Assembly: GCA_021324365.1 (NCBI GenBank)
Contig: JAJPJE010000042.1
Span: 62,001-126,000, forward strand
Reading direction: 5' to 3'
Length of the DNA stretch: 64,000 nt
Origin: Terriglobia bacterium
GTDB lineage: Bacteria; Acidobacteriota; Terriglobia; Terriglobales; Acidobacteriaceae
Shown here: piece by piece, positions 4,358-42,011 of the stretch
How positions within the stretch are numbered: the stretch's first letter is position 1
Layout: each line of letters begins with the position of its first letter
Notes under the pieces: model-generated
What the model saw: only the letters and a program-made list of their open reading frames with translations
Told to the model about the DNA's origin: nothing
Databases searched by the model: none
Made by a program: the position numbers and the translations under genes

Positions 4358-4434
4358 CGGGCGAAGGCAATCGGTCTGCAACTCTACCAGTTGTCGCACT
4401 AGTTATTTATAGGATTGGTTGATGCGAGGCTTCT

Positions 4435-4728
4435 ATGGCAAAAGGTTATTGGGTTAGCTTGTATCGTTCCGTGTCCAACCCCGCTGCTCTTGCCGAGTAC
4501 GCCAAAGAGGCTGGGCCGGTTATTGAAGCCGGAGGCGGCCGTTTCCTGGCGCGTGGTGCAGCCGTGAAAGCATACGAAGCAGGCGTAATTGAACGGTCGG
4601 TACTCATTGAGTTCGACTCAGTGGAGAAGGCTATTGCTACGTACGAGAGCGCTCCCTACCAGTCTGCGATGAAACACCTGAAAGGCGCATGCGTTCGGGA
4701 TGTCCGGTTTCTCGAAGGCGCACAATGA
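4435..4728 (+). CDS. DUF1330 domain protein
   Basis: A 97-residue protein of the DUF1330 family, a small ferredoxin-like (dimeric alpha-beta barrel) fold. Family traits visible are the N-terminal K-G-Y-W-V strand, Y-A-x-x-A-G-P-V-I-E-A-G-G-G-R-F-L near residue 22, and the late E-F-D-S-V-E-K-A-I-A-x-Y-x-S-x-x-Y segment. Length is normal for the family. The biochemical role is not established for the family. It stands alone, 77 bases after the TPR gene. Confidence 0.85.
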   Translation: MAKGYWVSLYRSVSNPAALAEYAKEAGPVIEAGGGRFLARGAAVKAYEAGVIERSVLIEFDSVEKAIATYESAPYQSAMKHLKGACVRDVRFLEGAQ

Positions 4729-4926
4729 TGGCGAGGCTGCGATTCAAAACGAAGGGTACCTGAGTTTGCGTCAGACCTCAGTACTCACATGCCATTTGAC
4801 GTATTGGTGTTCAAAAGCAGTTGCTTCGTCCTGCTCGGGCCCAAGCACAACTGATGCCAGCAGCCCTCGTACAAGTGCAACCCGCCCTTCTACAAACGCA
4901 ACACAACATTTATTGAGAATCCTTTT

Positions 4927-10319: not shown

Positions 10320-11888
10320 ATGTCACTACGAAAGAAAACTTTCGGCTTGTTACTGCCGGCGCTGGCCATGGTCTTGGTTTTATTTGCGTCCTCCGCTGCG
10401 ATCGGACAAGAAAACACGCCCAAAGTCGATGTCTTTACTGGGTATTCGTGGTATTCGCCTGGTGGCTCAGTAGCCGGGCTAAAGCTGAACGACAACACTA
10501 AGGGCGGAATCGGCAGCTTCGCCTACAATTTTTCCAAGTACTTCGCTGGGGAAGTTTCGGGGTCCGGACACTCCGATAACAACAATAGCTCCTATTTTGT
10601 TGGAGCAGGACCGCGAATCACCCTGCGCAATCCGCAGTTCCAGCCGTTCCTGCACGCCCTGGTTGGAATGCAGCATCTCAAGTTCGATCCATTGAACGAC
10701 AGTAACATCGGTGCCGCGATCAAGGCTGGCGGTGGATTTGACATGCCACTCTGGAAGCACGTCGGCATTCGCTTAATAGAGGCCGATTACGTTTACGCGC
10801 ACCAAAACTTCTATCCAGTGTCGAGAACAAATCTGTCAGGCGCTGAACTGTCGAGCGGTTTGATGTGGTACTTCGGCGGAGCACCGCCGCTTCCACCCAT
10901 GGCAGCTTCGTGCAGCATTCAGCCGACCTCGGTCTTAGCGGGTGAGCCGGTTACTGCGAATGCGAATGTCACGAATATTCCTCCGAAGCACACGGTCACC
11001 TATGACTGGAAGACAACGGGTGGCAAGCTGACTCCGAAGGATGCGGCGGCCACGATTGACACCACGGGTCTTGCACCCGGCCAGTACACCGTAACGGCGA
11101 CTGCTACGGACAATAAGGCGAAGAAAGGCTCGACCCCCGCGACTTGCAACGCGCAGTTCACGATCAATGAGCCTCCGAAGCATCCGCCGACGATTAGCTG
11201 CTCAGCCAATCCGGCGACAGTGAAATCGGGTGAGCCTGCGACCATTACCTCCACCAGCGAGAATCCGGACAATCGTCCTCTGACTTACAGCTATACCGCG
11301 AGCGCGGGTACGATCTCCGGCACCGGCACAACCGCCACCCTCGATACGGCGGGTGCACCGGCGGGACCGATTACCGTCAATTGCAATGTCAGCGACGATC
11401 GCGGGCTGACGGCGAACTCCTCCACCAGCGTTAACGTGGAAGTACCGCCGCCACCGCCGCAGGCGTCTAAGATCGGCGAGTGCGACTTCCCGAATAAGGC
11501 GAAGCCGTGGCGCGTCGACAACACCTGCAAGGCCGTACTGGATGATGTTGCTCTGCAACTGCAGCGCGATCCGAACTCCACGCTGGCCATCGTCGGACAA
11601 CAAGCGCCTGACGAGAAGGGCAAGACTCTGGCAGCCGAACGCGCTGTCAACGCCAAAGACTATCTGACCAGTGGCGAGGCCAAGCAGTCGATTGATGCGT
11701 CGCGCATCAAGGCTTACCAGGGCACAGCGGGTACTCAGAAAGCCGAGTACTATCTGGTTCCGCAGGGGGCGACCTTCAATGTGGAAGGTGCAACGCCGGT
11801 TGACGAGTCACAGGTTAAGGCTCGCGGCCGTGCGCCAGCACCCAAGAAGAGAGCTGCCCCGAAGAAGAAAGCCGCTCCGGCGCAGTAA
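10320..11888 (+). CDS. OmpA-family outer-membrane protein with Ig-like repeats
   Basis: A 522-residue envelope protein. It has a signal peptide (residues about 1-27, ending A-A-I-G-Q) and an N-terminal 8-strand barrel-like domain (about 30-190, with alternating hydrophobic strands and aromatic ends). At least two Ig/PKD-like repeats of about 85-100 residues follow; each starts with Cys, ends T-C-N-A or N-C-N-V and has P-G-Q-Y-T-V-T-A-type strands. A C-terminal OmpA-like segment follows (about 395-490) and then a Lys/Ala/Pro-rich basic tail. The OmpA segment suggests peptidoglycan contact, and the basic tail is unusual. The frame extends upstream, but GGAGG at 10309-10313 sets the ATG at 10320. 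A strong terminator follows. Confidence 0.85.
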   Translation: MSLRKKTFGLLLPALAMVLVLFASSAAIGQENTPKVDVFTGYSWYSPGGSVAGLKLNDNTKGGIGSFAYNFSKYFAGEVSGSGHSDNNNSSYFVGAGPRITLRNPQFQPFLHALVGMQHLKFDPLNDSNIGAAIKAGGGFDMPLWKHVGIRLIEADYVYAHQNFYPVSRTNLSGAELSSGLMWYFGGAPPLPPMAASCSIQPTSVLAGEPVTANANVTNIPPKHTVTYDWKTTGGKLTPKDAAATIDTTGLAPGQYTVTATATDNKAKKGSTPATCNAQFTINEPPKHPPTISCSANPATVKSGEPATITSTSENPDNRPLTYSYTASAGTISGTGTTATLDTAGAPAGPITVNCNVSDDRGLTANSSTSVNVEVPPPPPQASKIGECDFPNKAKPWRVDNTCKAVLDDVALQLQRDPNSTLAIVGQQAPDEKGKTLAAERAVNAKDYLTSGEAKQSIDASRIKAYQGTAGTQKAEYYLVPQGATFNVEGATPVDESQVKARGRAPAPKKRAAPKKKAAPAQ

Positions 11889-11909
11889 CGTTATCAACCA
11901 GTTAGCCTT

Positions 11910-11947
11910 AGGCCGATCGGCCATGACCGATCGGCCTTTGTTTTTTT
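11910..11947 (+). terminator. Rho-independent terminator after OmpA-like gene
   Basis: Perfect 11-bp stem AGGCCGATCGG / CCGATCGGCCT with loop CCATGA, followed by TTTGTTTTTTT, 21 bases after the stop codon. Confidence 0.95.
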
Positions 11948-12062
11948 GGTTCCGTCCGGGCAGAATCTCTGGCCGTGGGTTTAAAGTGCATCTGAAGGGA
12001 TATACCCGGACCGCTGCTTTCCCCGGCAGCTGCTTGAGGGAACCCTGGGAGGATTGATACAC

Positions 12063-14093
12063 GTGTTAAGGGGCAAACTGGAACGTTGGCTACGGATCTT
12101 CGTAGTGATTCTGGGAGTAGCGGCGCTGGCACAGGCGGCTACCGCTCAACAACAATGGATACCGCTGGGGCCGGATGGTGGGGACGCCCGCAGCTTGACG
12201 CATGATCCCGCGAATCCGGATCGCATCTTTCTGGGAACCAGTTCAGGGTGGTTGTATCTCTCAACCGATGGAGGCGCTTCGTGGTCGCGATTTGCCCATC
12301 TCGGAAATGGTGATTACGTTCTCGACCACGTCCAAATCGACCCGAGCAACTCGAATATCATGTACGTCGCGGCTTGGAGCGCCGAGCGCGTAGGCGGCGA
12401 CCTCTTTAAAACGACTGACGGCGGTCGCACATGGAACGCGCTGCCAGGAATGCATGACAAATCGATTCGAGCCATGGCGCTGGCGCCGTCGGATCCAAAA
12501 GTACTTGTAACCGGCGCTCTTGATGGCGTTTTCCGCAGCACCGATGGCGGAAAGTCGTGGCGGCAGATTTCTCCTCCGAATCATGCTGAGATCAAGAACA
12601 TCGAATCGATCGCCATCGATCCACAGAATCCAGACGTGATTTATGCGGGTACGTGGCATCTGCCGTGGAAGACGCCGGATGGCGGCAAGACATGGCAGCA
12701 CATTAAGAACGGTGTAATCGACGACTCTGATGTGTTCTCGATCATAGTCGATCCTAAGGCTCCTTCCGTTGTTTACGCCAGCGCTTGCTCTGGTATCTAC
12801 AAGAGCGAAAATGGTGGCGACCTGTTCAAGAAAGCACAGGGCATTCCTTTCTCGGCACGCCGCACTCGCGTACTCCACCAGGATCCAGTCAACAGCAACG
12901 TCGTTTATGCTGGCACAACTGAAGGCTTGTGGCGTACGAGCGATTCCGGCAAGTCATGGAAGCAGATCACTGGTCCGGAAGTGGTCGTAAACGATGTGCT
13001 GATTGACCCGCGCAATGATTCGAAGATCATGATTGCGACCGATCGCATGGGCGTTCTGGTCAGCAAGAACAACGGCTCTACCTTCGAAGCCACGAACCGC
13101 GGATTTTCGCACAGGCGGGTCAGCGCACTGGTCGCAGACCGCTCCGATCCTTCTACGTTGTACGTGGGACTGATCAACAACCAGGAGTTCGGTGGCGTCT
13201 TCGTTTCTCACGACAGCGGACGTAACTGGGAGCCGATGAGCAACGGACTGCACGGGCGCGATATTTTCTGGCTCGAGCAGCCAGAAGCCGGAGCGCTGGT
13301 TGCGGGTACCAATCGTGGCATCTTCCGCCTCGCAAAGGGTGAGCACGAATGGCAGCCGATTAACACTGCACTTGAAGAGAAGATGGTTCGCGTGAAGGTT
13401 ACTCCAAAGCCCGGCGCGCACGTGAAGAGAGCGTCGGTAACTTACGTTGAGAGGCAGGAGTTCGTTAAGTCTGAAATTGTTGGCCGAGTTTCGCAATTGA
13501 AGCTGGAAGGCAAGCACTGGTATGCGGCAACGGCAAGTGGCCTGTATCGCAGCATCGACAAGGGCCGCAGCTGGACTGGCGGTTCGGTGCTTGGCTATAA
13601 GGATTTCATTGCGGTAGATGCGTTGGACAGCAACGTGATCGCTACGGATCTCAATCACGTCGTAATCTCGACTGATTCGGGCAACACCTGGAATTCCGTG
13701 AAGGTTCCGCAGTTCACCGGTGCCATCACGCGAGTTGCGGTGCAGCCGGGACAGTTCTGGATCCTGACGCGAATCGGCGCATTCCGTAGCAAGAACAATG
13801 GCGCAACGTGGGAGCACGTGATGGTTGGTACGCCTGCTTCCAACATGACCTACCTCGCTTATGACCGCAGTAGTGATGAACTTCTGGCGGTTGGCAATCC
13901 ACGCACGATGGTCTTCACCAGCAACGATGGCGGAAACACGTGGAAGCAGGGTCCACAATCGATGTGGCCGGTTCACAACGTCGCCGTGGTTCACGGCAAG
14001 TTGTATGGACTGACCGATTTCGACGGCGTGATTGCAGAAGCCGGTTCCAACGGCGGCGAGCGCAGCGTAAACGCCGGCGGCGGCATGAACTAG
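12063..14093 (+). CDS. Exported BNR/YCF48-like beta-propeller protein
   Basis: A 676-residue secreted protein with signal peptide (hydrophobic I-F-V-V-I-L-G-V-A-A-L-A, cleavage near A-T-A-Q). The mature part is built of many copies of the BNR/sortilin-type motif S-x-D-x-G-x-S/T-W (for example S-T-D-G-G-A-S-W-S, T-D-G-G-R-T-W, S-D-S-G-K-S-W, S-N-D-G-G-N-T-W), spaced about 45-60 residues apart, which folds as one or two beta-propellers. Such proteins bind glycans or proteins; no catalytic residues of sialidases can be assigned. A TTG at 12054 opens the frame but overlaps the GGAGGA at 12048-12053, so the GTG at 12063 is the better start. Confidence 0.85.
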   Translation: MLRGKLERWLRIFVVILGVAALAQAATAQQQWIPLGPDGGDARSLTHDPANPDRIFLGTSSGWLYLSTDGGASWSRFAHLGNGDYVLDHVQIDPSNSNIMYVAAWSAERVGGDLFKTTDGGRTWNALPGMHDKSIRAMALAPSDPKVLVTGALDGVFRSTDGGKSWRQISPPNHAEIKNIESIAIDPQNPDVIYAGTWHLPWKTPDGGKTWQHIKNGVIDDSDVFSIIVDPKAPSVVYASACSGIYKSENGGDLFKKAQGIPFSARRTRVLHQDPVNSNVVYAGTTEGLWRTSDSGKSWKQITGPEVVVNDVLIDPRNDSKIMIATDRMGVLVSKNNGSTFEATNRGFSHRRVSALVADRSDPSTLYVGLINNQEFGGVFVSHDSGRNWEPMSNGLHGRDIFWLEQPEAGALVAGTNRGIFRLAKGEHEWQPINTALEEKMVRVKVTPKPGAHVKRASVTYVERQEFVKSEIVGRVSQLKLEGKHWYAATASGLYRSIDKGRSWTGGSVLGYKDFIAVDALDSNVIATDLNHVVISTDSGNTWNSVKVPQFTGAITRVAVQPGQFWILTRIGAFRSKNNGATWEHVMVGTPASNMTYLAYDRSSDELLAVGNPRTMVFTSNDGGNTWKQGPQSMWPVHNVAVVHGKLYGLTDFDGVIAEAGSNGGERSVNAGGGMN

Positions 14094-38398: not shown

Positions 38399-38703
38399 AA
38401 GGCGTTGCCACGAGAATCCCAAAACTTCAATGCTAACACAGGGTTAACCCGGCCCTGATAGCAGCTGGGCTGTCGGATTCTTGCCAGCTCTCGATGTATA
38501 ATCGCGACTTCGTAATGGCGGAACACCGGCCTTTCTTTTCGCTTTTACGATGCAAGCCCAGCGCTGCACTTCGTTCTAAATTTGCGTCGCAGCGGAAGAT
38601 GAGCCGCAGGTGTGGCCGACTTATCGAATGCAGTCGAGCCTCTGCGTTTAGTCCAATCCGGATGAGGTACCGAGTGGGAATTTTTGGTCGACCAGCAAAA
38701 CCG
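38399..38703. other. 305-base divergent region between smpB and the secretin gene
   Basis: It contains a perfect TATAAT at 38497-38502 with poor -35 candidates, which would leave a leader of about 195 bases before the secretin ATG, and a 13-mer AGTGGGAATTTTT at 38673-38685 that also occurs at 10086-10098. The frame of the secretin stays open through most of it, but the encoded residues are Arg/Cys-rich and do not look like protein. Confidence 0.45.
38497..38502 (+). promoter_or_regulatory. Candidate -10 (TATAAT) of the secretin gene
   Basis: Consensus -10 hexamer in the divergent gap. No matching -35 at 16-18 bases, so activator-dependent or misassigned. Confidence 0.3.
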
Positions 38704-41034
38704 ATGAACCGCCTGATGCGCATGGCGGGAGCCTTCTCCGTCCTGGCTTTGATCTTTTCTTTACCGGCATTGGCCGACCAGGCCAGCAAAGCATATAAAG
38801 CTGGCGTGGACGCGGAAGCGCGACAAGACTACGTACACGCTTACGAAGAATATAAGCATGCTTACGACCTGAAGCCGAAAGAGATTCGTTACAAGGCTGC
38901 GTTTACGCGCATTCGTTTCTATGCCTCCTCGGAACTGGTCCGCCAGGGTCAACTCCTCCGCAAACAGGGGAAGCTGCAGGACGCGCTGGTCATGTTCCAG
39001 CGCGCGAATGCTATAGACCCGAGCAACTTTGCGGCCGAGCAGGAGATGAACCGGACCCAACATGAGATCGAAACGCAAGGGCAGCCGAAGCCGACAGCAC
39101 AAAACGATCGGTCTGTGATCAGCCGCCTGGCCGCGCAAGCCGGCGAACCGGCAGAACTGAAGCAGATCTCGAATACGCCTATCACGATGCGAATGACCGA
39201 GGACAGTAAGGTCGTTTATACAACGATAGGTAAGCTCGCGGGCATTAACGTTCTTTTTGACCCCGATTACACGTCGCGAAGGATCGCGGTCGATCTGAAC
39301 AACGTCAGTCTGGATCAGGCGCTGGAAATCGTCGCACTGGAGTCAAAGACATTTTATCGCCCAGTGACTGAAAACACTGTCTTTGTTGCCGCGGATACCC
39401 CGGGTAAGAGAAAAGAACTTGAGCAGAGCGTAGTAAAGACTTTCTATCTTCAGAACGTTTCGAGCCCTAACGACCTGCAGGATTCGGTCAATGCCGTTCG
39501 CCAGATCACGAATATCAACAGCATTATTCAAATTCAATCTCAGAACGCGATCGTGGTTCGTGGCACTCCGGATCAGGTTGCTCTGGCGGAACGAATTCTG
39601 CAGGATATCGACAAGTCGAAGCCTGAAGTCGTTGTCGAAGTTGTCGTAATGCAGGTGAATCGAGACAAGGTCCGGACCCTGGGTTTTCAACCTCCACAAA
39701 ACGCCAGTGTCGCTTTGCAGTCCAATAGCAGCACGGCAAACAACAACAACAATAACAATAACAACAACAACAATAACAACAACAACTTGGGCACGGGTAC
39801 GGGAAACACGGGTTCGCTTACCATCAATCAACTCGCAAACTTGAATGCGACCGATTTTGTAGTGAATATTCCATCAGCCACGGCAAACTTTCTGTTCTCC
39901 GACAACAACACCAAGATTCTGCAGAATCCGCAGATTCGCGCCGTCGACAATCAGAAAGCGACTCTTAAGATCGGTGAACGTGTGCCGGTGGCGACTGGAT
40001 CATTCCAGCCTGGAATTGGCGGCGTGGGCATCAACCCACTGGTCAACACGCAGTTTCAGTATCTCGATGTCGGCGTGAATATGGACATCACACCGCGCAT
40101 ACACAATAACGGCGACGTCACCCTCAAAGTTGTCCTGGAGATTTCTTCCGTAACCGGAAACACGAACATTGGCGGCATTCAGCAGCCGATCATCGGCCAG
40201 CGCCGAGTGGAGCACGAAATCCGTCTAAAGGAAGGCGAAGTCAGCCTGATGGGGGGCATGCTGGAAGATCAGCAGATCAACAACCTGAACGGCTGGCCAT
40301 TCCTGTCGAAGATTCCGGGGCTGCGCTACCTGTTCTCTTCCGTGGATACGGAAACGCATACAACCGAAACGGTGTTCGCACTGATTCCTCGTGTTGTTCG
40401 CATGCAGGACATTCGCGAAGAGAACCTGGCGCCAATCTCCGTAGGCACCGCAGGCAACGTCGATTTGCGGCGCGTATCTGCGGTTTCTCCAATGGTGCAG
40501 CCTACTCCATCAGGTCCGGCAACAGCGGCGCCGAATCCGGCGGCAGCTCCCGGTGGAGGCGCGCCGGCACCGAATACATCAGCTCCCAATACACCGCAGG
40601 CGAGCCTGTCATCGGGCACGGGCATCATGAGCTTCGAACCTGCGACCATCAATCAACAGGTGGGGTCGACTTTCATGGTGAATCTCAGCCTCGGTGGCGC
40701 GGCGAATGTTTTTTCCGTTCCCGTAGAGCTTTCTTACGATCACAACATGCTGCAGTTGCTGAACGTGTCAAACGGTGGGGCGCTGGGGAAAGACGGTCAG
40801 CCGGTAACACTCGTACATCGTGAAGACCCAAACAATGGAAATCTGCAGATCACAGCGACCCGCCCGCCCGGCTCTGGAGGAGTGGCCGGACAGGGGCCGG
40901 TGTTTACCCTAACTTTTGCCGCTAAGGCTCCCGGAAGCTCCGAGCTGGTGATTACAAAGGGCACCGCACGCGATCCGGGAATGCAACTGATTCCGCTCGC
41001 GGGCAGCCAGGCCATGGTGACGATTTCCAAATAG
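38704..41034 (+). CDS. Secretin (PilQ/GspD-like) with C-terminal cohesin domain
   Basis: A 776-residue outer-membrane pore. Signal peptide (residues about 1-22, ending S-L-P-A-L-A-D); TPR-like helices about 25-130; N0/STN domain about 165-225; N1 secretin_N domain about 235-305; secretin beta-barrel about 310-570, including the V-P-V-A-T-G and E-V-S-L-M-G-G-M-L blocks. A 16-Asn run at 346-361 interrupts the barrel start. After a Pro/Ala-rich linker (about 597-638) comes a cohesin-like domain (about 640-776). The start is chosen at the ATG 38704 because it gives a signal peptide (ATG 38719 also possible). Two pseudopilin genes follow. Confidence 0.88.
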   Translation: MNRLMRMAGAFSVLALIFSLPALADQASKAYKAGVDAEARQDYVHAYEEYKHAYDLKPKEIRYKAAFTRIRFYASSELVRQGQLLRKQGKLQDALVMFQRANAIDPSNFAAEQEMNRTQHEIETQGQPKPTAQNDRSVISRLAAQAGEPAELKQISNTPITMRMTEDSKVVYTTIGKLAGINVLFDPDYTSRRIAVDLNNVSLDQALEIVALESKTFYRPVTENTVFVAADTPGKRKELEQSVVKTFYLQNVSSPNDLQDSVNAVRQITNINSIIQIQSQNAIVVRGTPDQVALAERILQDIDKSKPEVVVEVVVMQVNRDKVRTLGFQPPQNASVALQSNSSTANNNNNNNNNNNNNNNNLGTGTGNTGSLTINQLANLNATDFVVNIPSATANFLFSDNNTKILQNPQIRAVDNQKATLKIGERVPVATGSFQPGIGGVGINPLVNTQFQYLDVGVNMDITPRIHNNGDVTLKVVLEISSVTGNTNIGGIQQPIIGQRRVEHEIRLKEGEVSLMGGMLEDQQINNLNGWPFLSKIPGLRYLFSSVDTETHTTETVFALIPRVVRMQDIREENLAPISVGTAGNVDLRRVSAVSPMVQPTPSGPATAAPNPAAAPGGGAPAPNTSAPNTPQASLSSGTGIMSFEPATINQQVGSTFMVNLSLGGAANVFSVPVELSYDHNMLQLLNVSNGGALGKDGQPVTLVHREDPNNGNLQITATRPPGSGGVAGQGPVFTLTFAAKAPGSSELVITKGTARDPGMQLIPLAGSQAMVTISK
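39739..39786 (+). repeat. (AAC/AAT)16 trinucleotide repeat coding poly-Asn
   Basis: Sixteen Asn codons in a row, AAC with three AAT interruptions, inside the secretin gene. Such tracts can change length by slippage; each unit change keeps the frame. Confidence 0.98.
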
Positions 41035-41127: not shown

Positions 41128-41598
41128 TTGTTACTTTCTGTAAAAAGATCGCGTCGCGACGAGCGCGGAATGACGCTAATCGAGCTCATTGTCGCGATTA
41201 CCATCATGATGGTTCTGACCACAGCCGTGCTCCCAGTTGCAAGGCTTACCATCCGCCGCGAAAGAGAGAAGGAACTTCGCCGCGACTTGTGGGAAATGCG
41301 CGACGCCATCGATCGCTACAAAGATGCTGCCGATCGTGGTCTATTCCAGATTAAGCTCGGGACCGAGGGGTATCCGCCGGATTTGGACACCCTCGTTAAG
41401 GGAGTCGATATTGGCGGAAAGAAGGTTCGTTTTCTTCGCCGTATTCCGATCGATCCGATGACCGGCAAGACCGAGTGGGGGCTGCGTTCTATGCAAGACG
41501 ACCCACAGAGCACTTCCTGGGGCGGTCAGAACGTGTTTGATGTTTATACCCAGTCGCAGGACACTGCGCTGGATGGAACGAAGTATTCTGAATGGTAG
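41128..41598 (+). CDS. Type II secretion/type IV pilus pseudopilin (GspG-like)
   Basis: A 156-residue prepilin-like protein. The short basic leader ends R-G and is cut before M-T-L-I-E-L (the prepilin peptidase motif, with Glu5). A hydrophobic helix of about 20 residues follows, then a soluble domain with I-P-I-D-P-M-T-G-K-T-E-W-G, close to GspG. TTG start at 41128; no strong ribosome binding site, so the start is approximate. It overlaps the next pseudopilin gene by seven bases. Confidence 0.88.
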   Translation: MLLSVKRSRRDERGMTLIELIVAITIMMVLTTAVLPVARLTIRREREKELRRDLWEMRDAIDRYKDAADRGLFQIKLGTEGYPPDLDTLVKGVDIGGKKVRFLRRIPIDPMTGKTEWGLRSMQDDPQSTSWGGQNVFDVYTQSQDTALDGTKYSEW

Positions 41599-42011
41599 AT
41601 CGCTGCAAATTTCGCCGCTCGCGCCTGAAATCAGCCGGGTTCACTCTGATCGAATTAATGATCGTCATCAGCATGATCCTGATCCTGATTTCGATCGCAA
41701 TCCCGCTATACAATCAGTCGATCACGCGCGCACGGGAAGCGGTGCTTCGGCAGAACTTATTTACGCTCCGATCTGTTATTGATCAGTATTCGATGGACAA
41801 GCAGAAGGCACCTCAGTCGCTGGACGATCTGGTGCAGGCCGGTTATCTGAAGCAGATCCCGAACGATCCGATGACGAACTCGAAGGACACTTGGGAAACC
41901 GTGCAGGAAGACGTTCTCACCAGCGTGGATCAGACCCAACCCGGGATCACTGATGTGCATTCCGGATCGAGCGCGATTGGCAGTGATGGGACTGCTTACA
42001 ACACTTGGTAA
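41592..42011 (+). CDS. Type II secretion/type IV pilus pseudopilin (GspG-like), second
   Basis: 139 residues; leader K-S-A-G cut before F-T-L-I-E-L, hydrophobic helix M-I-V-I-S-M-I-L-I-L-I-S-I-A, soluble part with Y-L-K-Q-I-P-N-D-P-M-T-N-S and a C-terminal T-A-Y-N-T-W. The preceding protein ends similarly (G-T-K-Y-S-E-W), so the two probably arose by duplication and form a heteromeric pseudopilus with the secretin as exit pore. ATG inside the end of the previous gene. Confidence 0.9.
   Translation: MVDRCKFRRSRLKSAGFTLIELMIVISMILILISIAIPLYNQSITRAREAVLRQNLFTLRSVIDQYSMDKQKAPQSLDDLVQAGYLKQIPNDPMTNSKDTWETVQEDVLTSVDQTQPGITDVHSGSSAIGSDGTAYNTW

Follow-up and report, generated by a model that had tools for sequence, protein, structure and literature searches.

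A cohesin domain on a GspD-type secretin of Acidobacteriota and its possible role in docking an envelope partner

Introduction

What does a cohesin do at the end of an outer-membrane secretin? Acidobacteriota are major soil bacteria, and the question is raised by one gene in the 64,000-nt stretch of acidobacterial DNA analysed here (the window), in which a secretin pore and a Pro/Ala linker are followed by a C terminus that the first-pass annotation had called cohesin-like and had proposed to hold a dockerin-like cargo or a pilus tip at the outer membrane. No paper on a secretin with a cohesin was found in searches of the open-licence full-text literature, PMC11557425 and PMC3543383 among it. 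The architecture is already in public annotation, plasmid records being so labelled (see below).

Results

Domain organization of the window secretin

The gene and its downstream neighbours comprise the following features (positions within the window; residues in the numbering of the secretin ORF, P0001).

38494..41034, + strand: secretin ORF, GspD-type with a C-terminal cohesin, 846 aa (Pfam Secretin and Cohesin)
38704..38781, + strand: probable start Met71 and signal peptide (sequence; relatives' alignment)
38782..39081, + strand: TPR domain (Pfam TPR_2, E 3.5e-5, below its cut-off; helical model)
39178..39621, + strand: secretin N domains, N0-like and then Secretin_N (sub-cut-off Pfam matches; model)
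39739..39786, + strand: run of 16 Asn in a loop, residues 416-431 (low pLDDT)
39892..40401, + strand: secretin pore domain (Pfam Secretin, residues 467-636; Foldseek)
40423..40611, + strand: Pro/Ala-rich linker, residues 644-706, predicted disordered (pLDDT below 50)
40621..41034, + strand: cohesin domain and stop codon (Pfam, model, fold search, alignments)
41128..41598, + strand: pseudopilin 1, Pil1 (Pfam N_methyl, E 4.3e-8)
41592..42011, + strand: pseudopilin 2, Pil2, GspG-like (Pfam N_methyl, E 2.3e-6; NCBIfam gspG, E 2.1e-10, below cut-off)

Since the secretins of relatives align with the ORF from about residue 70 and Met71 begins a signal peptide, the true start is probably at 38704. The order of domains is then signal peptide, TPR, N domains, 16-Asn loop, pore, Pro/Ala linker and cohesin. 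The pore was matched by Pfam Secretin with E 3.1e-38 and by solved secretins in Foldseek, and the N domains by Secretin_N (E 1e-5) and weakly by STN, both below cut-off. In the full-length model, whose pTM of 0.35 makes only the individual domains meaningful, the TPR and cohesin parts are good, N0 and the pore fair, and the linker disordered; the TPR region is helical with blocks of pLDDT 93-97, and the residues below pLDDT 50 (574-636 in model numbering) are those of the linker. The position of the 16-Asn loop is occupied mostly by Thr in relatives (consensus of alignment A3, described below). An Rfam search of the window gave no match, and promoter and terminator scans of it gave results near chance.

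The C-terminal domain is a cohesin

Pfam Cohesin (PF00963) matched residues 717-822 with E 2.9e-9, scoring 37.7 bits (curated cut-off 24.1). The whole domain covers residues 710-846 (40621-41031 plus the stop codon), exactly the segment first annotated. Modelled in isolation from 80 sequences, it was predicted with pLDDT 95.3 and pTM 0.87. The best PDB match of this model in Foldseek was the non-cellulosomal cohesin 2xdh (E 2.5e-10) and in VIA-align 2vo8 (Z 18.3, rmsd 1.8 over 127 residues), and cohesins filled all 50 top rows in both searches, so that the structure prediction proposed as a check bore out the cohesin assignment. The single cohesin sequence matched no PDB chain in phmmer; a 30-sequence profile of the domain found cohesin 6kgc_A with E 4.5e-5. 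The non-cellulosomal cohesins of Archaeoglobus fulgidus (2xdh) and Clostridium perfringens (2vo8, 2jh2), which are among the best structural matches, share the fold, but they are not on secretins and are only about 15-22% identical to the window domain. These results show that the domain is a genuine cohesin on a genuine secretin.

Conservation of the cohesin in one secretin type

Among 61 genomes (the window's own and its relatives), a secretin match was found in 60, other secretins being counted too, and a cohesin match in 55 at E<=0.01 and in 52 over the cut-off. Some of the relatives' cohesin matches sit outside secretins (e.g. on C117 of G059), whereas all 29 relatives' secretins that were fetched (L006-L034, among the best-scoring ones) carry the cohesin tail. 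Genome contigs gave no match to the single domain as a query; with the 30-sequence alignment A1 as a profile, 175 stretches passed, of which the best 80 were kept. All of these best 80 are Acidobacteriota by title, and the scan is therefore uninformative on other phyla. A secretin directly precedes the cohesin in 80/80 of these loci, so the pairing is not due to chance. Downstream of the secretin lie Pil1 and Pil2 in 77 of the best 80, the contig stopping about 180-240 bases past the cohesin match in the other three, and SmpB precedes it in 70. One locus (L023) has a small ORF between Pil1 and Pil2 (4408-4785), which we take to resemble four-helix-bundle/23S intervening-sequence proteins. Two further alignments were made, A2 from 79 of the 80 loci and A3 from 69 (shorter ORFs dropped); L085, in which the read-through from the cohesin into Pil1 spans an assembly gap, was left out of both. 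Across 70 secretins, mean column identity was 0.72 for the cohesin and 0.75 for the pore as compared with 0.32 for the linker.

In a sample of 247 genomes of the phylum, we found a cohesin (E<=0.001) in 141 and a secretin (E<=1e-25, other secretins again counted) in 204; in the window's family the cohesin was present in 26/26. Of 30 cohesin loci fetched from this sample, 19 were fused to a secretin and 11 were not. Thus, the cohesin is an ordinary, conserved accessory domain of one secretin type. In one genome of the same class (G053), the secretin of the same operon (L143; G053:C38, 9165-11258) stops at a Pro/Ala stub, and a cohesin match was obtained nowhere in that genome. This looks like a loss, and since the operon runs without it, the cohesin is useful but not essential to the machine. 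Second secretin-cohesin copies occur in G006 (L187) and G031 (L188), with no Pil1/Pil2 beside them.

The secretin belongs to a type II secretion-like machine

The window's genome encodes three secretins: the one described here (contig C123), a PilQ with an AMIN domain and its own PilMNOP (C14), and a 641-aa protein with no evident gene cluster around it (C25). GspE/PilB-type ATPases with GspF/PilC partners are found in two places, as PilB-T-C on C122 and, on C62, in a cluster of GspF, GspE, PilM-like, PilN-like, 210-aa and 365-aa proteins together with a pseudopilin; the 210-aa protein is GspC/PilP-like by eye only and had no Pfam match. No secretin gene was found at the C62 cluster. In the cohesin-less operon L143, the secretin, Pil1, Pil2, GspF and GspE are encoded together with a PilM-like protein and one resembling the 365-aa protein. 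GspF and GspE adjoin the cohesin-secretin in 12/12 loci from other acidobacterial classes, a set chosen for carrying the cohesin-secretin (15 loci were usable; L187-L189, from the window's family, were left out), and they are closer to the proteins of C62 than to those of C122. Judged from these relatives, the window operon and C62 are most likely parts of one machine.

As pseudopilins lie downstream and GspF/GspE lie beside the secretin in relatives, we regard the window protein as the GspD of a type II secretion-like machine. It has a pore with N domains, and GspE, GspF and pseudopilins are in the genome, split between C123 and C62. With the type II GspD proteins PulD, EpsD and ExeD it shares the N domains, the pore and, in relatives, an operon with GspE, GspF and pseudopilins; unlike them, it has an N-terminal TPR, a C-terminal cohesin and no predicted S-domain, and it scores 149.4 bits with NCBIfam gspD (TIGR02517), below the equivalog cut-off of 351.35. 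We rejected the alternative that it is a type IV pilus PilQ: it has no Pfam match to AMIN, it reaches 112.2 bits with TIGR02515 against a cut-off of 284.35, and the genome's PilQ is the one on C14. A further type II system (Pul/Oxp) with the pseudopilins PulG, OxpG and TklG is described for Geobacter and Pelobacter in PMC3543383; its likeness to the window machine, as an additional type II system with pseudopilins, serves as a lead only.

Relatives on Burkholderiales plasmids

A domain search beyond the phylum found a plasmid secretin of Burkholderia ambifaria, encoded in an operon of a transglycosylase, gspG, gspF, gspE, four unnamed genes, the secretin and three pseudopilins. This protein aligned with the window secretin (E 1e-64) along 753 columns that begin in the TPR and reach into the cohesin, and is about a quarter identical to it. 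Used as a query, it retrieved 26 plasmid records at 1e-20, 8 of them covering at least 80% of the query. All four Burkholderiales plasmid secretins that were scanned have Secretin and Cohesin over cut-off, and the same operon is found in four Burkholderiales plasmid records; domain order and operon are thus as for the window protein (e.g. WP_070257939.1, WP_301260250.1). Three records (Janthinobacterium, Eleftheria) are annotated 'cohesin domain-containing protein', and two of the plasmid secretins examined have been tagged automatically with 'polysaccharide catabolic process', a misleading annotation that probably stems from the cohesin. Very large proteins of FG-GAP, RHS, Ig-like or cytochrome type are encoded near these operons (L227-L231) and could be clients.

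Position of the cohesin relative to the ring

Solved secretin structures place the C-terminal S-domain, together with the pilotin, on the outer face of the ring and not in the channel (PMC6882859, PMC6532946). By homology, the C terminus of the window secretin would be outside the ring and under the outer membrane, at the position of the S-domain, which makes the proposed hold on a pilus tip unlikely. No S-domain is predicted in the window secretin: in the single monomer model, which is of moderate quality (pTM 0.35), the last pore strand is followed by only a four-residue helix before the linker starts.

The window secretin has no lipobox Cys, and none was found by pattern in 107 sequences from its family and near relatives (L005-L117). 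In contrast, a lipobox Cys is present in the Burkholderia secretin (by pattern) and in 12/12 distant acidobacterial secretins (7 by pattern, 5 by eye). TPR pilotins exist, PilF for example, and the combination of lipobox Cys and TPR in these sequences looks like a built-in pilotin. Such secretins may pilot themselves, and the idea that the cohesin is a dock for a pilotin is weakened accordingly. Where the Cys is gone, as in the window's family, the cohesin may take over from pilotin binding, supplement it, or act as an anchor. A protein that looks LolA-like by eye is encoded at 11416-12081 of locus L130 (on C62), adjoining GspF; Lol sorting serves pilotins.

A docking role and its alternatives

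The cohesin probably docks another envelope component, because no cellulosome-type partner was found in the genome (see the last section). We propose that the window protein is the outer-membrane secretin of a small type II secretion-like machine, which would further comprise the two downstream pseudopilins and the GspF-GspE-PilM-PilN-(GspC-like)-pseudopilin cluster of C62. Each subunit of the ring would bear one cohesin, tethered by about 60 disordered residues of Pro/Ala linker, and the cohesins would surround the ring from outside, in the periplasm beneath the outer membrane, at the place of the S-domain in a classical GspD. By docking an envelope protein other than a dockerin at this site, they would help to place, assemble or anchor the ring. 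In this proposal we infer the assignment of C62 to the window secretin, the periplasmic side, the existence of the partner and the docking role; as a whole, we hold it tentatively, at close to an even chance. In its favour, the cohesin is nearly as conserved as the pore while the linker varies freely; the cohesin-less G053 operon and the fact that no partner was found count against it, as the lipobox Cys of distant secretins does against a pilotin dock.

If the docking role is correct, many cohesins that do not belong to cellulosomes would gain a function, and a further way to place a secretin would be shown; in Acidobacteriota, the protein would mark the outer-membrane pore of a secretion machine with dispersed genes. 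The broader version, in which the cohesin is a general docking part of a widespread TPR-secretin-cohesin machine of Acidobacteriota and Burkholderiales, with a conserved non-dockerin envelope partner replacing the S-domain/pilotin pair, would amount to a second, unrelated partnership of cohesins, located in the periplasm; it is conceivable but rather doubtful.

Within the class, the cohesin loop 'RPPG..GVSG.G' and the 'DGQ' motif are strongly kept (R81 in 41/41 sequences, D58 in 39/41, Q60 in 38/41), and the cohesin tails of other acidobacterial classes differ at both. These residues could fit a lineage-specific interface, although structural constraint explains them too. A rival view is that the cohesin has no outside partner and only stabilises the ring, by packing against it or against the TPR/N domains of adjacent subunits. 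Co-occurrence of TPR and cohesin in this secretin type, the optional nature of the cohesin in the L143 lineage and the possibly structural role of some of the conserved residues agree with such packing, whereas a long disordered tether would be odd for a packing domain, and cohesins of known function, as far as we are aware, bind other proteins. We consider it unlikely.

Alternatively, the cohesin may capture periplasmic clients of the machine itself, either the pseudopilins or secreted proteins. The regular presence of Pil1 and Pil2 behind the secretin fits this possibility, but L143 has both pseudopilins without a cohesin, L180-L182 have a cohesin without detectable Pil1/Pil2, and the cohesin is expected outside the ring and the pseudopilus inside it, all of which render it improbable. 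We give a slightly poorer chance to binding of peptidoglycan or another glycan, by which the ring would be tied to the wall. The cohesin fold resembles carbohydrate-binding modules, and a lytic transglycosylase gene is present at the Burkholderia and Paraburkholderia operons, yet we know of no cohesin that binds peptidoglycan.

Dockerins as partners of the secretin cohesin

The cargo proposed in the first-pass annotation would require a dockerin. The Pfam dockerin model (PF00404) had no match at E<=10 in the window's own genome (95.4% complete, 125 contigs), where the single cohesin is that of the secretin and neither a dockerin partner nor a scaffoldin with repeated cohesins, as in cellulosomes, is seen. 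Dockerins were found in 3 of the 61 genomes at E<=0.01 and over the cut-off in 2, as against 52 with a cohesin, and in the window's family in 1/26 genomes of the phylum sample. In that sample as a whole, dockerins occur in 93/247 genomes; 56 genomes have both domains, 85 the cohesin only, 37 the dockerin only and 69 neither, and there is no association between the two (odds ratio 1.23, p 0.51, uncorrected for kinship). Four proteins encoded near the Burkholderiales operons also had no dockerin match. The true cohesin fold, the 56 genomes with both domains and a 625-aa ORF, in a genome of the same class, with a cohesin followed by a dockerin (G059:C117:8336-8887) speak for a dockerin-bearing cargo, but this reading is contradicted for the window's genome unless the dockerin is in the missing 5% or too divergent for PF00404, and we reject it as the general explanation and consider it very improbable here. 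The dockerin-binding face of cohesins is formed by strands 8-3-6-5 (PMC8063739). Three genomes of the phylum sample (G213, G161 and G240) have 7 to 15 cohesin matches, several of them in very large ORFs, which are possible scaffold-like proteins of other Acidobacteriota; G213 and G240 have a few dockerins besides.
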